Shown one piece after another: positions 10,755 through 45,815 of a stretch of 45,855 nt of DNA (positions within the stretch are counted from its first letter, which is position 1; each line of letters begins with the position of its first letter). The stretch covers positions 1 to 45,855 of the IMG/VR virus record IMGVR_UViG_3300020129_000030, one strand, 5' to 3'. The notes beneath the pieces were generated by a model, which had not been told where the DNA came from, ran no database searches, and saw only the letters and a program-made list of their open reading frames with translations. This DNA comes from a virus. Both the position numbers and the translations under genes were made by a program.

Positions 10755-10761
10755 ATTTCTA

Positions 10762-36762: not shown

Positions 36763-36780
36763 ACGCTGACAGACGTATAG
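36757..36780 (+). promoter_or_regulatory. Phage RNA polymerase promoter (copy 2), overlapping the terL stop
   Basis: GGGTAAACGCTGACAGACG then TATAGAGGAC. The TAA of the terminase gene is inside the element. It matches copy 1 for about 18 of 20 bases and then shifts to TATAGAGG, closer to the T7 TATAGGGA start. It points into the palindrome cluster and the early region; it may make a transcript across the genome ends or serve replication or packaging. Confidence 0.75.
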
Positions 36781-36789
36781 AGGACACTA

Positions 36790-36861
36790 AGGTGTTACCT
36801 AGGTGACACCTAGGTTTACCTATAGGTGTTCTCTAGGTAGTCGTAGATATAGGTGACACCT
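36790..36861 (+). repeat. Cluster of AGGT/ACCT palindromes
   Basis: AGGTGTTACCT (36790-36800), CCTAGGTGACACCTAGG (36798-36814, 8-bp arms about one A), TAGGTTTACCTA (36811-36822), TAGGTGTT (36823-36830) and AGGTGACACCT (36851-36861). Further ATCACCT copies follow to 36910. Part of it recurs at 43275-43307 with nearly the same spacing. It looks like an array of binding sites for a dimeric protein, or a processing signal. Which protein binds is unknown. Confidence 0.75.
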
Positions 36862-36899
36862 TAGGTACCACACTGGCACACCTCAGAATCACCTCAGGA

Positions 36900-37909: not shown

Positions 37910-37963
37910 ATGAATCGATACAGCACATTCGGCTACTTGCTCTGTCAATCGGTGAACGCATGA
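37910..37963 (+). CDS. Possible 17-codon leader peptide
   Basis: ATG 37910 follows AAAGGGG; the frame reads MNRYSTFGYLLCQSVNA and its TGA (37961-37963) overlaps the ATG of the next gene at 37960. The next gene has no good ribosome binding site of its own, so this short frame could couple its translation. Too short for protein-level evidence. Confidence 0.4.
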   Translation: MNRYSTFGYLLCQSVNA

Positions 37964-38661
37964 AGTATCACCTAACGCCAATCAGCAGGAATGCTAAGAC
38001 TGGCCCAATACCGGTCAGCACTAGCAGTGCGGAAACGTGCCCCGATGTTTGCCCGTTCAAGCGTGACACTACGGTAAACGGGTGCTATGCCGATGGCGGG
38101 CCGCTCGGGATGCACTGGCAACAAGTGACCAAGGGAAAGCGCGGCACAGACTGGCCCGAATTTGTTGCCAGCATTGCAGCGTTACCGGACGGTCAACTGT
38201 GGCGGCACAATCAGGCGGGTGACCTACCGGGCGTTAATGATGCTCTGGACACTGAGGCATTGGCGCAGCTAGTCGCAGCGAACAAAGGAAAGCGTGGTTT
38301 CACCTATACGCACAAGCCTTTGAACACTGACAGCGAGCGGGACGCCATTAAACGGGCTAACGCTGACGGTTTCACGGTCAACCTATCAGCTAATAGCTTG
38401 GCGCACGCTGACGCACTGGCGGGCCTAGAAATAGGGCCTGTTGCCGTGGTATTGGATGCTGCCCAAACGGTCAACACATTGACGCCTAGCGGGCGTAAGG
38501 TTGTAGTGTGCCCTGCGACGCAACGGGATGACGTATCGTGCGCTAGCTGTCAACTGTGCCAGCGTCAGCGCAGCGTGATTGTAGGCTTTCCGGCTCATGG
38601 AGCTAGCGCCAAGCGTGCGACGCGTATCGCAGTGAGTTACAAGGGACGTGATTTGGTGTAA
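37960..38661 (+). CDS. Cysteine-rich phage protein of unknown function (DUF7227-like)
   Basis: 233 residues. Two cysteine groups are visible: ETCPDVCPF with GCY (about residues 27-42) and a later VVVCPATQRDDVSCASC followed by QLC (about 183-200). Between them are GQLWRHNQAGDLPG, GFTYTHKPL, GFTVNLSANSL and, at the end, VGFPAHGASAKRA. This pattern belongs to a widespread uncharacterised family in phages and plasmids (DUF7227 from memory). The cysteines suggest a bound metal or iron-sulfur cluster. Function unknown; here it is an early gene, so a role against the host or in DNA metabolism is possible. Confidence 0.7.
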   Translation: MKYHLTPISRNAKTGPIPVSTSSAETCPDVCPFKRDTTVNGCYADGGPLGMHWQQVTKGKRGTDWPEFVASIAALPDGQLWRHNQAGDLPGVNDALDTEALAQLVAANKGKRGFTYTHKPLNTDSERDAIKRANADGFTVNLSANSLAHADALAGLEIGPVAVVLDAAQTVNTLTPSGRKVVVCPATQRDDVSCASCQLCQRQRSVIVGFPAHGASAKRATRIAVSYKGRDLV

Positions 38662-40809: not shown

Positions 40810-41094
40810 ATGAAGAAAACCATCCTGTTCGCCGCGATCCTGGCAGCGTCCATGAACGCCAACGCGACGCTGTTCTGTGACGGTGACAACACCCCGGGGA
40901 TCGTGACGTGGAACGTGGGCCAGAACACCGACGCCATGCACGCCTTGAGCTTCGACACCGGAGTGGAGTGCTTCGCCACTGGCGCTGAACTGCACTTCAT
41001 ACAACAGAACTACCCGGGCCTTCGCAACAGGCTCAACGTGAAGTTCATCAACTGGTACGGTGAGGACGCGCAGTTCATCGTGGGCAACCTGTAA
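40810..41094 (+). CDS. Secreted early protein of unknown function
   Basis: 94 residues. MKKTILFAAILAASMNANA is a textbook Sec signal peptide with an ANA cleavage site. The mature part of about 75 residues has two cysteines (C23 and C53) suited to a disulfide. No domain recognised. An early-expressed periplasmic phage protein could block re-infection. It is the second secreted protein of the phage, unrelated by eye to the one at 14977. Confidence 0.65.
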   Translation: MKKTILFAAILAASMNANATLFCDGDNTPGIVTWNVGQNTDAMHALSFDTGVECFATGAELHFIQQNYPGLRNRLNVKFINWYGEDAQFIVGNL

Positions 41095-41327: not shown

Positions 41328-41651
41328 ATGTACTTTATGTCAATGGGTTTCGAGTTGTTGGTTTGTCGTGCGTTTATAGAAGGGAGAAGGTACTATGCTC
41401 AGATCGATGATGGCACAGTCGAAATCGGGTGCGGTCCTATCTTCATCTCGGCATCAAGAAGCAGTCGGGACGCATCAGGCGGCACATGGGGAGAGAGCAG
41501 TGACTTCGATAAACTCTGTCGGGCTTTCGAGGCTGATGGAAGCGTTGAGGATACTGCGCGAGGCGACGGGGAATGCAGAGTTACAGATGCAGACTATGGT
41601 CACCTTCGTGTACATCGCGCAGCGACACCCCAACGAGGTTCCATCGGGTGA
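41328..41651 (+). CDS. Doubtful small protein overlapping the MarR-like gene
   Basis: 107 residues from ATG 41328 with GAGGGAG upstream. The first 60 residues (GFELLVCRAFIEGRRYYAQ, DDGTVEIGCGPIFI) are protein-like and the DNA is locally more AT-rich. The last 50 residues run out of frame through the MarR-like gene. Either a real overlapping gene, or a decayed one. An alternative start for the regulator (ATG 41395) also lies here. Confidence 0.3.
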   Translation: MYFMSMGFELLVCRAFIEGRRYYAQIDDGTVEIGCGPIFISASRSSRDASGGTWGESSDFDKLCRAFEADGSVEDTARGDGECRVTDADYGHLRVHRAATPQRGSIG

Positions 41652-41868
41652 GATTGAAAAACTGCTAGGCATCGCGCAGACCACGGTATCACGCAACCTG
41701 CAGTACCTAGGGAAAGGTCAGCGCGACGCGAAAGGGAACGTGGTCCTCGGTGGGTACAAGCTCATCGAAACCGCTGAGGACCCGTTCTACCGCAAGCGAA
41801 AGCTGTCGAAGCTCACAACGAAAGGCGAGGGCGTGGCTGCGAAGATCGCGGCTGCGCTTTCGTTCTAA
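41500..41868 (+). CDS. MarR-like winged-helix regulator, candidate lysogeny repressor
   Basis: 122 residues from GTG 41500 with GGGGAG at 41488-41493 (6-base spacing). An ATG at 41395 with its own site would add 35 low-complexity residues. The pattern is MarR-type: helix LSRLMEALRILREATG, HTH VPSGEIEKLLGIAQTTVSRNL, and a wing with YRKRKLSKLTTKGE. It lies 138 bases before the integrase gene, the usual place for a regulator of lysogeny. Its operators are not known; the AGGT/ACCT palindromes at 36790 and 43275 are candidates. Autoregulation through the inverted repeat at 41165 is possible. Confidence 0.75.
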   Translation: MTSINSVGLSRLMEALRILREATGNAELQMQTMVTFVYIAQRHPNEVPSGEIEKLLGIAQTTVSRNLQYLGKGQRDAKGNVVLGGYKLIETAEDPFYRKRKLSKLTTKGEGVAAKIAAALSF

Positions 41869-41878
41869 AAGGGATGTT

Positions 41879-42007
41879 ATGACTGCGAAGATGTTGTTGT
41901 ACAAGGCAATCTACGGGGGCCGTCTGACTTTGCTGCAGACTCTCCGAGTCAACTTCTATTGCTGGCGCACTTGCCGTCCTTACTTTGTTCCCGTACGGGG
42001 ACGCTGA
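41879..42007 (+). CDS. Small basic protein of unknown function
   Basis: 42 residues from ATG 41879, with AAGGGA at 41869-41874. Rich in R and aromatic residues (YKAIYGGRLTLLQTLRVNFYCWR). The stop overlaps the integrase start (TGATG at 42005-42009), so it could be an excisionase-like accessory, but no HTH is visible. Confidence 0.45.
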   Translation: MTAKMLLYKAIYGGRLTLLQTLRVNFYCWRTCRPYFVPVRGR

Positions 42008-43020
42008 TGCCACTACTCAATCGCAACGGTGTGTTCTACGCGGACTTCCGAAGGCGGGGCGGGGGTCTCATCTCCTGCCGCACGCGTGACAAGCTGCAAG
42101 CAGAGCAGGAGTACGCGAGGCTGCAGCTAGCGCTCGCTGAGGGCAGGGCCGTAACGGGCATGGTTACAGGCACCACGCTCGGGCAGGCGTTCGACATGGC
42201 TGAGAAGATGCAGTTCAGGAAGCTCAAGTCGAGTCGCACCCTTGGGTTCCATCGCAAGGCAATCGCAAGTGCAATCCCCGAGGACACCCCTTTGGCCGAC
42301 ATATCGGTCGACCATGCGTCCACCCTGGTCGCCGCGCTCGAGGGCAAGGGGAACGGACTGGCAACCATCAACCGCACCATGCAGACGCTAACGCGTGTGT
42401 TGGGACTCGCGGTCGAATGGCGGATGCTCGACTCAGCACCGAAGCTTCCCCGCTTCAAGGAATCTCGGGGGCGCATCCGTGTGATCGACTACGCTGAAGA
42501 GAAGGCTATCTGTGCCGAGTTCGAGCGCATCGGGAAGCACGAGATGGCGCTGCTGGTCACGCTGCTGATCGACACCGGCCTGCGCCTCGGGGAGTACCTG
42601 CACCGCGAGCGCATGGCCTACCACAAGGCGAAGAGCATGGTCGAACTGTGGGAGACCAAGGCAGGCACCGGACGCACCGTGCCGCTGACTCCGCGGGCCG
42701 CTGCTGCCCTTGAGGCACTCCTTGCGACCCCGAAGCTCACCAAGGACCAGATCGAGTCACGGTGGCAGACCATGCGCCGGAACATCGGCATGGCCGGGGA
42801 CAAGCAGTTCGTGATCCATGCGCTGCGCCACACCTGCTGCACGCGCCTGTGGCAGTCGGGGAAGCTCCAGGCTGCACACATCATGGCGTGGATGGGCCAC
42901 AAGGACCTGAAGACCACGATGAGGTACACCCATCTGGTCCACGCTGATCTGGTCGTCGGTGCCGATGCACTCGCGCATGGGTTCGCGCAGGCCAGTGAGC
43001 AACTGCAACGCGTCGAGTGA
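42007..43020 (+). CDS. Tyrosine recombinase (phage integrase)
   Basis: 337 residues from ATG 42007. N-terminal arm-binding/core-binding region (residues 1-160), then the catalytic domain with R193 (DTGLRLGE), K218 (ETKAGTGRTV), H271-x-x-R274 (HALRHTCCTRL), H298 (GHKDL) and nucleophile Y307 (MRYTHL). All the conserved tyrosine-recombinase residues are present, so the protein is probably active. A copy of a tRNA-Leu 5' half lies 120 bases downstream as the presumed attP. An integrase of this kind in a T7-type genome suggests a lysogenic option, as proposed for marine podophages such as P-SSP7. Confidence 0.92.
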   Translation: MPLLNRNGVFYADFRRRGGGLISCRTRDKLQAEQEYARLQLALAEGRAVTGMVTGTTLGQAFDMAEKMQFRKLKSSRTLGFHRKAIASAIPEDTPLADISVDHASTLVAALEGKGNGLATINRTMQTLTRVLGLAVEWRMLDSAPKLPRFKESRGRIRVIDYAEEKAICAEFERIGKHEMALLVTLLIDTGLRLGEYLHRERMAYHKAKSMVELWETKAGTGRTVPLTPRAAAALEALLATPKLTKDQIESRWQTMRRNIGMAGDKQFVIHALRHTCCTRLWQSGKLQAAHIMAWMGHKDLKTTMRYTHLVHADLVVGADALAHGFAQASEQLQRVE

Positions 43021-43140
43021 CGCGCTTTGAACCCAACTGTGACGCGCAAGTGTGTGACGTGGTGCATAGACCCATGCGGAAGAGGGTACGGCAACACCGT
43101 TTCCTCTTCTGGATCAGTCTGTTGTATGATCTGTGACGAG

Positions 43141-43185
43141 GCCCAGATGGCGGAATTGGTAGACGCACTAGGTTCAGGTCCTAGG
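43141..43185 (+). other. Putative attP core: 5' half of tRNA-Leu(CAG)
   Basis: Starts GCCCAGATGGCGGAATTGGT, with the class II leucine D-arm (GCGG...AGACGC) and a perfect anticodon stem CTAGG-TTCAGGT-CCTAG carrying CAG. After position 43185 the sequence stops resembling a tRNA: no T-arm or matching 3' acceptor strand, so it is not a working tRNA gene. A tRNA fragment just after an integrase gene is the classic attP arrangement. P-SSP7 has a similar 42-bp tRNA-Leu match next to its int gene. Confidence 0.85.
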
Positions 43186-43243
43186 AGTTACTGCATGGAT
43201 TCAAGGGCCTGTCCCCGACTGTACCACGTCACACGCGAAACAG

Positions 43244-43270
43244 GGGGTAAACGCTGATGAACGCACTACC
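43244..43270 (+). promoter_or_regulatory. Phage RNA polymerase promoter (copy 3, before its own gene)
   Basis: GGGGTAAACGCTGATGAACG followed by CACTACC. Same element as at 10762 with TAGA changed to TGAA. It lies 98 bases before the polymerase gene, so the enzyme could transcribe its own gene (positive feedback), subject to the palindromes and hairpin in between. Confidence 0.75.
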
Positions 43271-43274
43271 CCCG

Positions 43275-43307
43275 GGTGACCCATAGGTTTACCCCATAGG
43301 TGTTACC
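43275..43307 (+). repeat. Second copy of the AGGT/ACCT module
   Basis: GGTGAC (43275), TAGGTTTACC (43284-43293), TAGGTGTT (43297) and AGGTGTTACC (43298-43307). The first two are 9 bases apart, exactly as at 36802 and 36811. It sits between the promoter and the terminator-like hairpin of the polymerase gene. Confidence 0.75.
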
Positions 43308-43341
43308 AGAGGTTCTCGAAAGGGAGCCTCTGGTTTCGTTT
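43306..43341 (+). terminator. 12-bp hairpin with GAAA tetraloop before the polymerase gene
   Basis: CCAGAGGTTCTC-GAAA-GGGAGCCTCTGG forms a 12-bp stem (two G-T pairs) with a GNRA loop, then TTTCGTTTG. It has the form of an intrinsic terminator, placed between the phage promoter and the polymerase start. It could limit self-amplification or be an mRNA-processing or 5'-stabilising hairpin. Confidence 0.65.
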
Positions 43342-43367: not shown

Positions 43368-45815
43368 ATGGAACAAGCAACACCTGAATTGATGAGAAGG
43401 GAATGCGAGCTTGAGAAGGAAGCGGTGGGCCTAGGTCAAGGCCGCTACTACTCGACCCTCGCAGCACGAGGGCTGGAAGAGTCGCAGCCGGGTGGCTGGA
43501 TGATCAAGAAGATGATCACCCCGCTGGCTGCGGAGATTACACAGTGGGTCAAGGACGCTGAGGACGGCAAGGCGTCACGCAACGCGGGGTTGGCACTGTT
43601 CCTCAGCCAGTTCGACCCGTTCGACGTGGCGTTCATCACCGCACGCAAGGTGGTCGCCTCGTTCGACGGCACAGGTCGGCTCACGAACGCTGCAATGGGA
43701 CTCACCCGTATGCTGGAAGAGGCCAGCATGAGTGACGCACTACGCAAGGCCGACCCGAAGGCATGGAAGCGGCTGCAGACGAAGATCGAGCGGTGCCCGT
43801 ATCCCAACAAGCGCTACATCCTGACCCGCAAGGCGATGGGACAGGCACAAGTCAAGCGCATCTCGTGGTCCCTCACGGATCGCGTTCGACTTGGTGTCCA
43901 CCTGATCGCGCTGTGTGCGGACACGTCCGGTGCATTCACCATCGAGGCGAGGTTCGTCAACAAGAACCACTCGGTGAACTTCCTCGTCCCGCATCAAGAG
44001 ACTCTCGACAAGCTGGCCGAGGCTCACGAGCGGTGTGCGCTGAACTCACCCTGGTACCTGCCGATGGTCGTACCCCCGCGCCCGTGGACCACGCTCCGCG
44101 ACGGTGGCTACCTCGACACGCGTGGTCTTCGCCGGTGGTTGGTCAACAGTCACGCGCTGGACAAGAGCTACATCGAGGCACTGAAGGAAGCACCGATGCC
44201 GATGGTCTACGAGGCAGTCAACGCTGTGCAGGCGACGCCTTGGCGCATCAACCGGCGCGTGCATGAAGTGTTGCGTGATCTGTGGGACGCAGGCAGTACG
44301 CTCGGGAAGCTCCCGGCTCGCGACAATCTGCCGCTGCCGTCAGCACCGTGGACCGATGAGCCTGACCACGACACCGACGAGTACAAGGCGCACCGCGCAT
44401 CACTGGCCCGCACCCACGAGGCCAACGGCAAGCTCCGCGGCAAGCGGCTGGCGCTGCAGAGTAAGTTGTACGTCGCGGACAAGTTCTCCGAGTACGACGC
44501 GATCTACTTCCCGCACTGCGTGGACTTCCGCGGTCGCCTGTACCCCGTGCCACCCCTTGTGAACCCTCAGGCGGACGATACAGGCCGCGCTATGCTCGAG
44601 TTCGCAGCCGGTGTGGAACTCGGTGAGGATGGCGCATGGTGGCTCGCGATCCACGGAGCCAACACCTTCGGGTTCGACAAGGTGCCGTTCGACAACCGTG
44701 TGCAGTGGGTCGAGGAACACCAAGACGCAATCCGCGACTCCGCGCTGAACCCGCTGGACGGTGAACGCTTCTGGTGTGGTGCTGACGATCCGTTCATGTT
44801 CCTAGCGTTCTGCTTCGAGTGGGCCAAGCTGCAGGATTGGGTCGGCTCGGGTCAGCCGCAGGAGCAATTCTCGTCGCACCTGCCGGTGGCATGGGACGGC
44901 TCATGTAACGGTCTACAAAATTTTAGCGCCATGTTGCGTGATCCAATTGGCGGTGCAGCCACAAATCTCGTCCCCTCTCCCACGCCTGCGGACATTTATC
45001 AGCGCGTGGCTGACGTAGCATCGGCACAGGTCGAGCGTGACGCAGCGAACGGCGAAGTGAATGCCGTGTACTGGAAGGGCAAGGTCGCACGCAAGATCGC
45101 GAAGCGCCCGACCATGACACTGCCGTATGGCTCGGGTCGCTACGGGTTCCGCGATCAACTGCGGTCGGAGTTGCAGAAGATCAGGCTTGACGAGGGTCAG
45201 TCGTACATCAAGGGCGACGAGTTTCTCTGCTCCATGTATCTCGCCAACGTGCTGTACGACGCGCTGAGTCAGGTGGTGGTAGCCGCACGCACTGCGATGG
45301 ACTGGCTGAAGGACGCGAGCAAGCCCGTCGCCGCGGCAGGGATGCCGGTGCGTTGGACTGCACCCACCGGGTTCATCGTGCAACAGGAGTACCACGAGCA
45401 ACTCGGGCAGGTCGCCAACTGCACTGTCGGGGGCAGGCGTTATCAAGTCCTGGTTCACATCACCACGGACAAGATCGACAAGCGCAAGCAGGCGCAAGGC
45501 ATCAGCCCCAACTTCGTTCACTCGCTCGACGCCGCGCACCTGATGCGGACGGTGAGCCTGTGTCGCGAGGCCGGGGTGGTTGACTTCGCTATGGTCCACG
45601 ACTCATACGGCACGCACGCTGGCAACGCTGCGATCATGCACGCCAAGCTACGCGAGGCATTCGTGGCGCAGTACAGTGGCAACGTGTTGGCGGACCTGCG
45701 GCTCGAGCTTCTGCAGCAGGTGCCTGAGGCCGACCGAGACAAGGTGCCGGGGGTGCCACCCCAAGGCGACTTGGACCTGACCGCAGTCTTGCAGTCGGAG
45801 TATTTCTTCGCCTAA
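43368..45815 (+). CDS. Phage single-subunit RNA polymerase, T7 gp1-like
   Basis: 815 residues (T7 is 883) from ATG 43368 with AGGGAG at 43355-43360; an ATG at 43364 leads to a stop after eight codons. Motif A WDGSCNGLQNFSAMLRD has D510 (T7 D537); motif B KRPTMTLPYGSG has K579 and Y587 (T7 K631, Y639); motif C MVHDSYGTHAG has D745 (T7 D812). The enzyme should be active and would read the four promoters in the window. Its position just before the replication genes (in circular order) is that of T7, not of phiKMV. Codon use around motif A is more AT-rich than the rest. Confidence 0.95.
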   Translation: MEQATPELMRRECELEKEAVGLGQGRYYSTLAARGLEESQPGGWMIKKMITPLAAEITQWVKDAEDGKASRNAGLALFLSQFDPFDVAFITARKVVASFDGTGRLTNAAMGLTRMLEEASMSDALRKADPKAWKRLQTKIERCPYPNKRYILTRKAMGQAQVKRISWSLTDRVRLGVHLIALCADTSGAFTIEARFVNKNHSVNFLVPHQETLDKLAEAHERCALNSPWYLPMVVPPRPWTTLRDGGYLDTRGLRRWLVNSHALDKSYIEALKEAPMPMVYEAVNAVQATPWRINRRVHEVLRDLWDAGSTLGKLPARDNLPLPSAPWTDEPDHDTDEYKAHRASLARTHEANGKLRGKRLALQSKLYVADKFSEYDAIYFPHCVDFRGRLYPVPPLVNPQADDTGRAMLEFAAGVELGEDGAWWLAIHGANTFGFDKVPFDNRVQWVEEHQDAIRDSALNPLDGERFWCGADDPFMFLAFCFEWAKLQDWVGSGQPQEQFSSHLPVAWDGSCNGLQNFSAMLRDPIGGAATNLVPSPTPADIYQRVADVASAQVERDAANGEVNAVYWKGKVARKIAKRPTMTLPYGSGRYGFRDQLRSELQKIRLDEGQSYIKGDEFLCSMYLANVLYDALSQVVVAARTAMDWLKDASKPVAAAGMPVRWTAPTGFIVQQEYHEQLGQVANCTVGGRRYQVLVHITTDKIDKRKQAQGISPNFVHSLDAAHLMRTVSLCREAGVVDFAMVHDSYGTHAGNAAIMHAKLREAFVAQYSGNVLADLRLELLQQVPEADRDKVPGVPPQGDLDLTAVLQSEYFFA

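Follow-up and report, generated by a model that had tools for sequence, protein, structure and literature searches.

The window analysed here is the whole virus record of 45,855 bases, and it displays a T7-type gene order. Genes for an ssDNA-binding protein, primase-helicase, DNA polymerase, head-tail adaptor, head assembly protein and major head protein are followed by those for a tail protein, an internal virion protein, a tail fiber and the terminase large subunit. The early region comes next, and the end of the window holds a regulator, an integrase, half of a tRNA gene and an RNA polymerase (Table 1). With its single-subunit T7-type RNA polymerase and T7 gene order, the phage is T7-like (Autographiviridae), and the polymerase, ssDNA-binding protein, primase-helicase and structural genes bear out the T7-type assignment of the initial annotation. 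It has no near phage in the collections searched: no relative found has a polymerase more than 46% identical to its own. Integrase, tRNA half and polymerase follow one another without a break, and the record therefore represents the unintegrated form; this contiguity of integrase, attP and polymerase rules out a prophage end. A search for a terminal repeat in the window found none.

Two proteins of the early region may be recorded here. One, encoded at 37960-38661 (+) close to the start of the region, matches DUF7227 (E=2.3e-92), a match that assigns no function. The other, a 94-aa protein encoded at 40810-41094 (+), carries an N-terminal signal-peptide-like stretch, MKKTILFAAILAASMNANA, and is without a Pfam or PHROG match. 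Of the early proteins tested, none could be recognised as an excisionase.

Table 1. Features of the regulator-integrase-attP-polymerase region (window coordinates).
Feature	Position	Strand	Remarks
MarR-fold winged-helix regulator	41500..41868	+	122 aa, GTG start; in-frame ATG upstream at 41395
Tyrosine integrase	42007..43020	+	337 aa; R193, K218, H271, R274, H298, Y307
Candidate integrase arm-type sites, TGTGAC/GTCACA (n=4)	43038, 43053, 43132, 43228 (span 43038..43233)	+, +, +, -	
-10-like hexamer, TATGAT	43125..43130	+	ten bases before tRNA half; weak, no good -35
attP core, tRNA-Leu(CAG) 5' half (nt 1-44)	43141..43184	+	ends at 3' side of anticodon stem
Putative phage RNA polymerase promoter, GGGGTAAACGCTGAT motif	43239..43262	+	between attP and polymerase gene
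Intrinsic terminator	43305..43334	+	13-pair stem; between attP and polymerase gene
T7-type single-subunit RNA polymerase	43368..45815	+	815 aa; Pfam RNA_pol, E=3.4e-116

The regulator and integrase are both well defined at the level of sequence and fold. The regulator matches the transcriptional regulator family PHROG_9665 (E=2e-20) and aligns at 32-33% identity with LUZ100 gp10, the RHEph21 MarR protein and the HTVC019P regulator. Its AlphaFold model has a mean pLDDT of 90, and among PDB structures its fold is matched best by MarR and MepR (probability 1.00), in keeping with the winged-helix, MarR-like protein that had been proposed before the integrase. A MarR-like regulator adjoining the integrase, a trait of temperate-type T7-like phages, is thus present in the window. 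The integrase matches Pfam Phage_integrase (PF00589, E=2.6e-15) and the PHROG integrase family (1.2e-32), and the six catalytic residues named in the initial annotation are invariant across 12 aligned integrases, those of the window and of 11 T7-like phages. Identity to these 11 is only 25-32%, and a search of IMG/VR for close integrase relatives returned none. The gene stands directly before that of the T7-type polymerase and keeps all six residues of a complete tyrosine recombinase.

The attP core matches the 5' half of tRNA-Leu(CAG). The identity and position of this fragment, after the integrase, are as first described, with its length corrected from 45 bp to 44 bp exact: it runs from nucleotide 1 of the mature tRNA as far as the last base of the anticodon stem. 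No complete tRNA was found in the window by ARAGORN, and the exact 45-bp pattern was not found in IMG/VR. Among 200 sampled genomes of the Methylovorus order (Burkholderiales), 15 have complete tRNA-Leu(CAG) genes that match all 44 bases, well above the 30-bp host match that the initial annotation had sought. On this comparison the attP appears identical to part of a host tRNA gene, the 15 genomes representing the order of the likely host. Judged from the sequence, an exact 44-bp match that starts at the first base of a mature tRNA lies far beyond chance.

These matches point to a likely host in Burkholderiales. A Pseudomonas-type host is less likely, since every match in that family carries one mismatch (43/44, in 32 of 59 genomes). 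A Xanthomonadales-type host is disfavoured by the tRNA, with none of 151 genomes of the Stenotrophomonas order matching the half at up to one mismatch, though prophage polymerases there are close. Similarity of phage DNA was also searched for a sign of the host, and only tRNA pieces matched. Other candidate or comparable attachment sites were set aside. The tRNA-Leu(CAG) genes near T7-like prophages in Sphingomonas are complete and lie 9 kb from the polymerase, with no attachment shown; the RHEph21 fragment proved to be a complete tRNA-Leu, and TRX32-1 is likewise annotated with a complete tRNA-Leu.

Several signals surround the core. The motif TGTGAC, picked after inspection, occurs four times around it, where its frequency across the window predicts 0.13 sites; it is also dense between integrase and polymerase in three other loci (L007, L081, L094). 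The -10-like hexamer TATGAT was left uncalled by a strict promoter scan. A tRNA rebuilt at attR would depend on this phage-side hexamer for its transcription, and P-SSP7 has TATAAT upstream of its own tRNA half where the window phage has TATGAT. The hexamer would also permit the half itself to be transcribed for some other purpose, as a tRNA decoy or regulatory RNA, and no support for that reading was found beyond it. Such a role is highly improbable, as the integrase is adjacent and the end of the fragment coincides with the anticodon stem, the place of recombination in related phages.

The GGGGTAAACGCTGAT motif has four copies genome-wide, at 10757, 36751, 43239 and 45832 (+), located before the head genes, at the terminase end, and on either side of the RNA polymerase gene. 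These sites score 31-38, while nothing in 20 shuffled sequences scores above 13.7, and they are probably the cognate promoters of the window polymerase. Separately, runs of TAGGTGACACCTAGGTTTACCTATAGGTGTT-like near-palindromes occur at 36780-36870 and 43281-43306. Both runs contain TAGGTTTACC, in two exact copies with none in shuffled sequences, and the near-palindromes are possible operators of the regulator.

The initial annotation had called for a search for integrated relatives, and these turned out to be common. A scan of bacterial genomes covering 84,980 species by polymerase alignment found 171 polymerase relatives. The closest are prophage polymerases, 42-46% identical, with Methylovorus (46%) and Stenotrophomonas (45%) foremost. 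Integrases were sought in some of the genomes with polymerase relatives. Of the prophages whose two ends share a contig, all 20 have the integrase at the end away from the polymerase, at a distance of 37-43 kb, the layout that recombination at a site between the two genes must produce. Most of these prophages show tRNA halves at their ends, and a regulator homologue precedes the integrase in all 15 integrase loci checked in a first set. The integrase frame contains a stop codon in three prophages (G019:C7:276264, G1206:C13:564958 and G014:C17:35569), suggesting that these have decayed. In two Vampirovibrionales stretches (L075, 8316-9719; L105, 6181-7017), two or three tandem regulator homologues stand directly before a T7-type RNA polymerase, and no integrase was found within the fetched sequence.

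Three solutions to the disruption of the tRNA gene are seen. In the first, the phage carries a 3' half: the prophages of Methylovorus sp. MM2, whose polymerase is the closest found, and Pseudomonas putida HAI-2 are integrated at tRNA-Leu with polymerase and integrase at opposite ends, their attP being the 3' half of tRNA-Leu(TAG), present as direct repeats of 60 and 55 bp, respectively, with the complete tRNA beside the polymerase. Direct repeats of 49-98 bp containing tRNA sequence also occur in Rhizobacter, Stenotrophomonas, Marinicella and a related MAG. Among these, the T7-like prophages of Stenotrophomonas and the related MAG have tRNA-His repeats of 49-50 bp (L102/L222, L130/L229), and the target tRNA therefore varies within the group.

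In the second solution, the host tRNA-Leu is cut at the anticodon loop, with its 5' half by the polymerase and its 3' half by the integrase, and a complete tRNA-Leu of the same anticodon lies close to the integrase. Both features hold in 11 of 11 prophage pairs of this type (L072/L194, L074/L200, L077/L199, L092/L196, L096/L203, L104/L198, L108/L204, L118/L197, L120/L202, L135/L193 and L142/L206). This pattern corresponds to tRNA-dependent lysogeny as named in mycobacteriophages (PMC10865867), and it has also been noted for a Fonsibacter phage (PMC6811365). That scheme combines a short core with a complete phage tRNA of the same isotype; the window phage has instead a 44-bp rebuilding core and an incomplete tRNA. 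The third solution, a carried 5' half, is represented by the window phage and P-SSP7.

The genome samples searched held no integrated copy of the window phage and no prophage at tRNA-Leu(CAG). Of 399 genomes from the likely host order, only 3 had a polymerase relative, and no such relative was found in small samples of two families with exact tRNA matches.

The distribution of attachment sites also bears on whether the tRNA half has any present role. It might be a relic of an old imprecise excision, with integration, if any, taking place elsewhere, and an origin of this kind was proposed by the LUZ100 authors for the tRNA-Leu near the integrase of that phage (PMC10134795). A relic is very unlikely here, given that the fragment keeps all 44 bases and the exact boundaries of the tRNA, that it sits between integrase and polymerase, where 20 of 20 mapped prophages open, and that P-SSP7 has the same half in the same place.

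Taken together, these features very probably constitute an integration and lysogeny-control cassette of a T7-like phage, comprising a MarR-type regulator, an integrase, attP and the RNA polymerase, whose insertion would rebuild tRNA-Leu(CAG). The integrase would recombine attP with the host tRNA-Leu(CAG) gene, most likely in the anticodon stem-loop common to both. Since attP carries the 5' half, the junction on the integrase side would restore the gene: attR would read integrase, phage 5' half and host 3' half, with phage DNA upstream of the restored tRNA, while attL would retain only the host 5' half, beside the polymerase. Joining the phage 5' half to a host 3' half in silico gives a complete tRNA-Leu(CAG) by ARAGORN; the attL and attP sequences give none.

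The same event may act on the lytic programme. Integration would place the polymerase at the opposite prophage end from the early genes, regulator and integrase, and this separation should help silence lytic expression. In the free phage, read-through of the early region by the host polymerase would start expression of the phage RNA polymerase, which could then amplify itself from its own putative promoter at 43245. The integration competence of the phage is well supported. We infer the stability of the lysogen, and likewise the crossover point, the switch logic and repression by the MarR-type protein. Of the compact lysogeny module envisaged in the initial annotation, the integration cassette is supported, and it may allow stable lysogeny.

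Integration could take place and yet not last, as in P-SSP7 and S-TIP37, with the phage essentially lytic and the cassette serving as a safety net. The window shares the 5'-half attP design of P-SSP7, and T7-like cyanophages integrate at low frequency and transiently, without forming stable lysogens (PMC8776855). The relatives examined include no 5'-half-type prophage, those seen being of the 3'-half or split-tRNA type. On the other hand, the nearest polymerase relatives are stable-looking prophages in bacterial chromosomes. A MarR-fold regulator adjoins the integrase, a point that is not decisive, as P-SSP7 is annotated with one too. We regard transient integration as a serious, though not the favoured, possibility; it overlaps with the integration and lysogeny-control cassette proposed above, because that reading leaves stability open.

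A broader pattern may be advanced tentatively, and we consider it rather less than probable at present: T7-like temperate phages may follow an either/or rule for the tRNA they enter, with integration that cuts the polymerase from the early genes forming part of the switch. The first option suggested by the data is to carry half of a tRNA, from which the host gene is rebuilt: the 5' half for the window phage and P-SSP7, the 3' half for the Methylovorus and P. putida prophages. The second is a short core with a complete replacement tRNA of the same anticodon, as suggested by the split-tRNA prophages (11 of 11). As attP always lies between integrase and polymerase, integration itself would separate the polymerase from the early genes. 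This would offer another reading of tRNA-Leu genes beside integrases, as replacements for a host tRNA broken by integration and not leftovers of imprecise excision.

The T7-like phages able to integrate thus gain a member whose host is probably in Burkholderiales; its attP indicates which group the host belongs to and which gene is the target. In the context of phage therapy, the window phage is a further T7-like phage that cannot be assumed to be strictly lytic.

Such cassettes have precedents, and their novelty was overrated in the initial annotation: the combination of integrase, MarR-like regulator and tRNA-Leu in T7-like phages is already published for P-SSP7, pelagiphages, Pasto and LUZ100. 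Cassettes of MarR-type regulator, integrase and RNA polymerase with tRNA-Leu are described in LUZ100 (PMC10134795), in P-SSP7 and S-TIP37 (PMC8776855), and in pelagiphages. RHEph21 (a Rhizobium phage), Pasto and HTVC019P (a pelagiphage) resemble the window in having a regulator and integrase before a T7-type RNA polymerase. Unlike the window phage, RHEph21, Pasto and uv-Fonsiphage-EPL carry a complete tRNA-Leu; the last integrates in tRNA-Leu through an 11-bp core (PMC6811365).

The Pseudomonas phage LUZ100, whose terminase is 56% identical to that of the window, also places a MarR-like regulator and integrase immediately ahead of its RNA polymerase, with a phage-specific promoter before the polymerase. 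LUZ100 has a terminator after the integrase, and the promoter and terminator between attP and polymerase in the window resemble this arrangement. The control proposed for LUZ100 combines terminator read-through, polymerase autoactivation and repression by the MarR-like protein (PMC10134795). Its tRNA-Leu is complete and lies on the opposite strand between regulator and integrase, whereas the half tRNA of the window follows the integrase. The best terminase match (57.7%) is the Limnohabitans phage YIMV22061, which shares the order integrase, tRNA-Leu and RNA polymerase. Its host genus belongs to Burkholderiales. It differs from the window in having a complete tRNA-Leu(TAA) on the opposite strand and an integrase only 29% identical.

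The closest parallel at the attachment site is the Prochlorococcus phage P-SSP7. P-SSP7 and S-TIP37 have the same order of regulator, integrase, attP and RNA polymerase as the window. Site-specific integration into tRNA-Leu has been demonstrated by PCR for both, and in S-TIP37 it requires both the integrase and attP (PMC8776855). The comparison with P-SSP7 made in the initial annotation is exact: its attP is the 5' half of tRNA-Leu(TAA), on the same strand, ending at the anticodon and lying between integrase and RNA polymerase. The two phages differ in the gene entered, tRNA-Leu(TAA) of a cyanobacterial host for P-SSP7 and, for the window phage, tRNA-Leu(CAG) of Burkholderiales.
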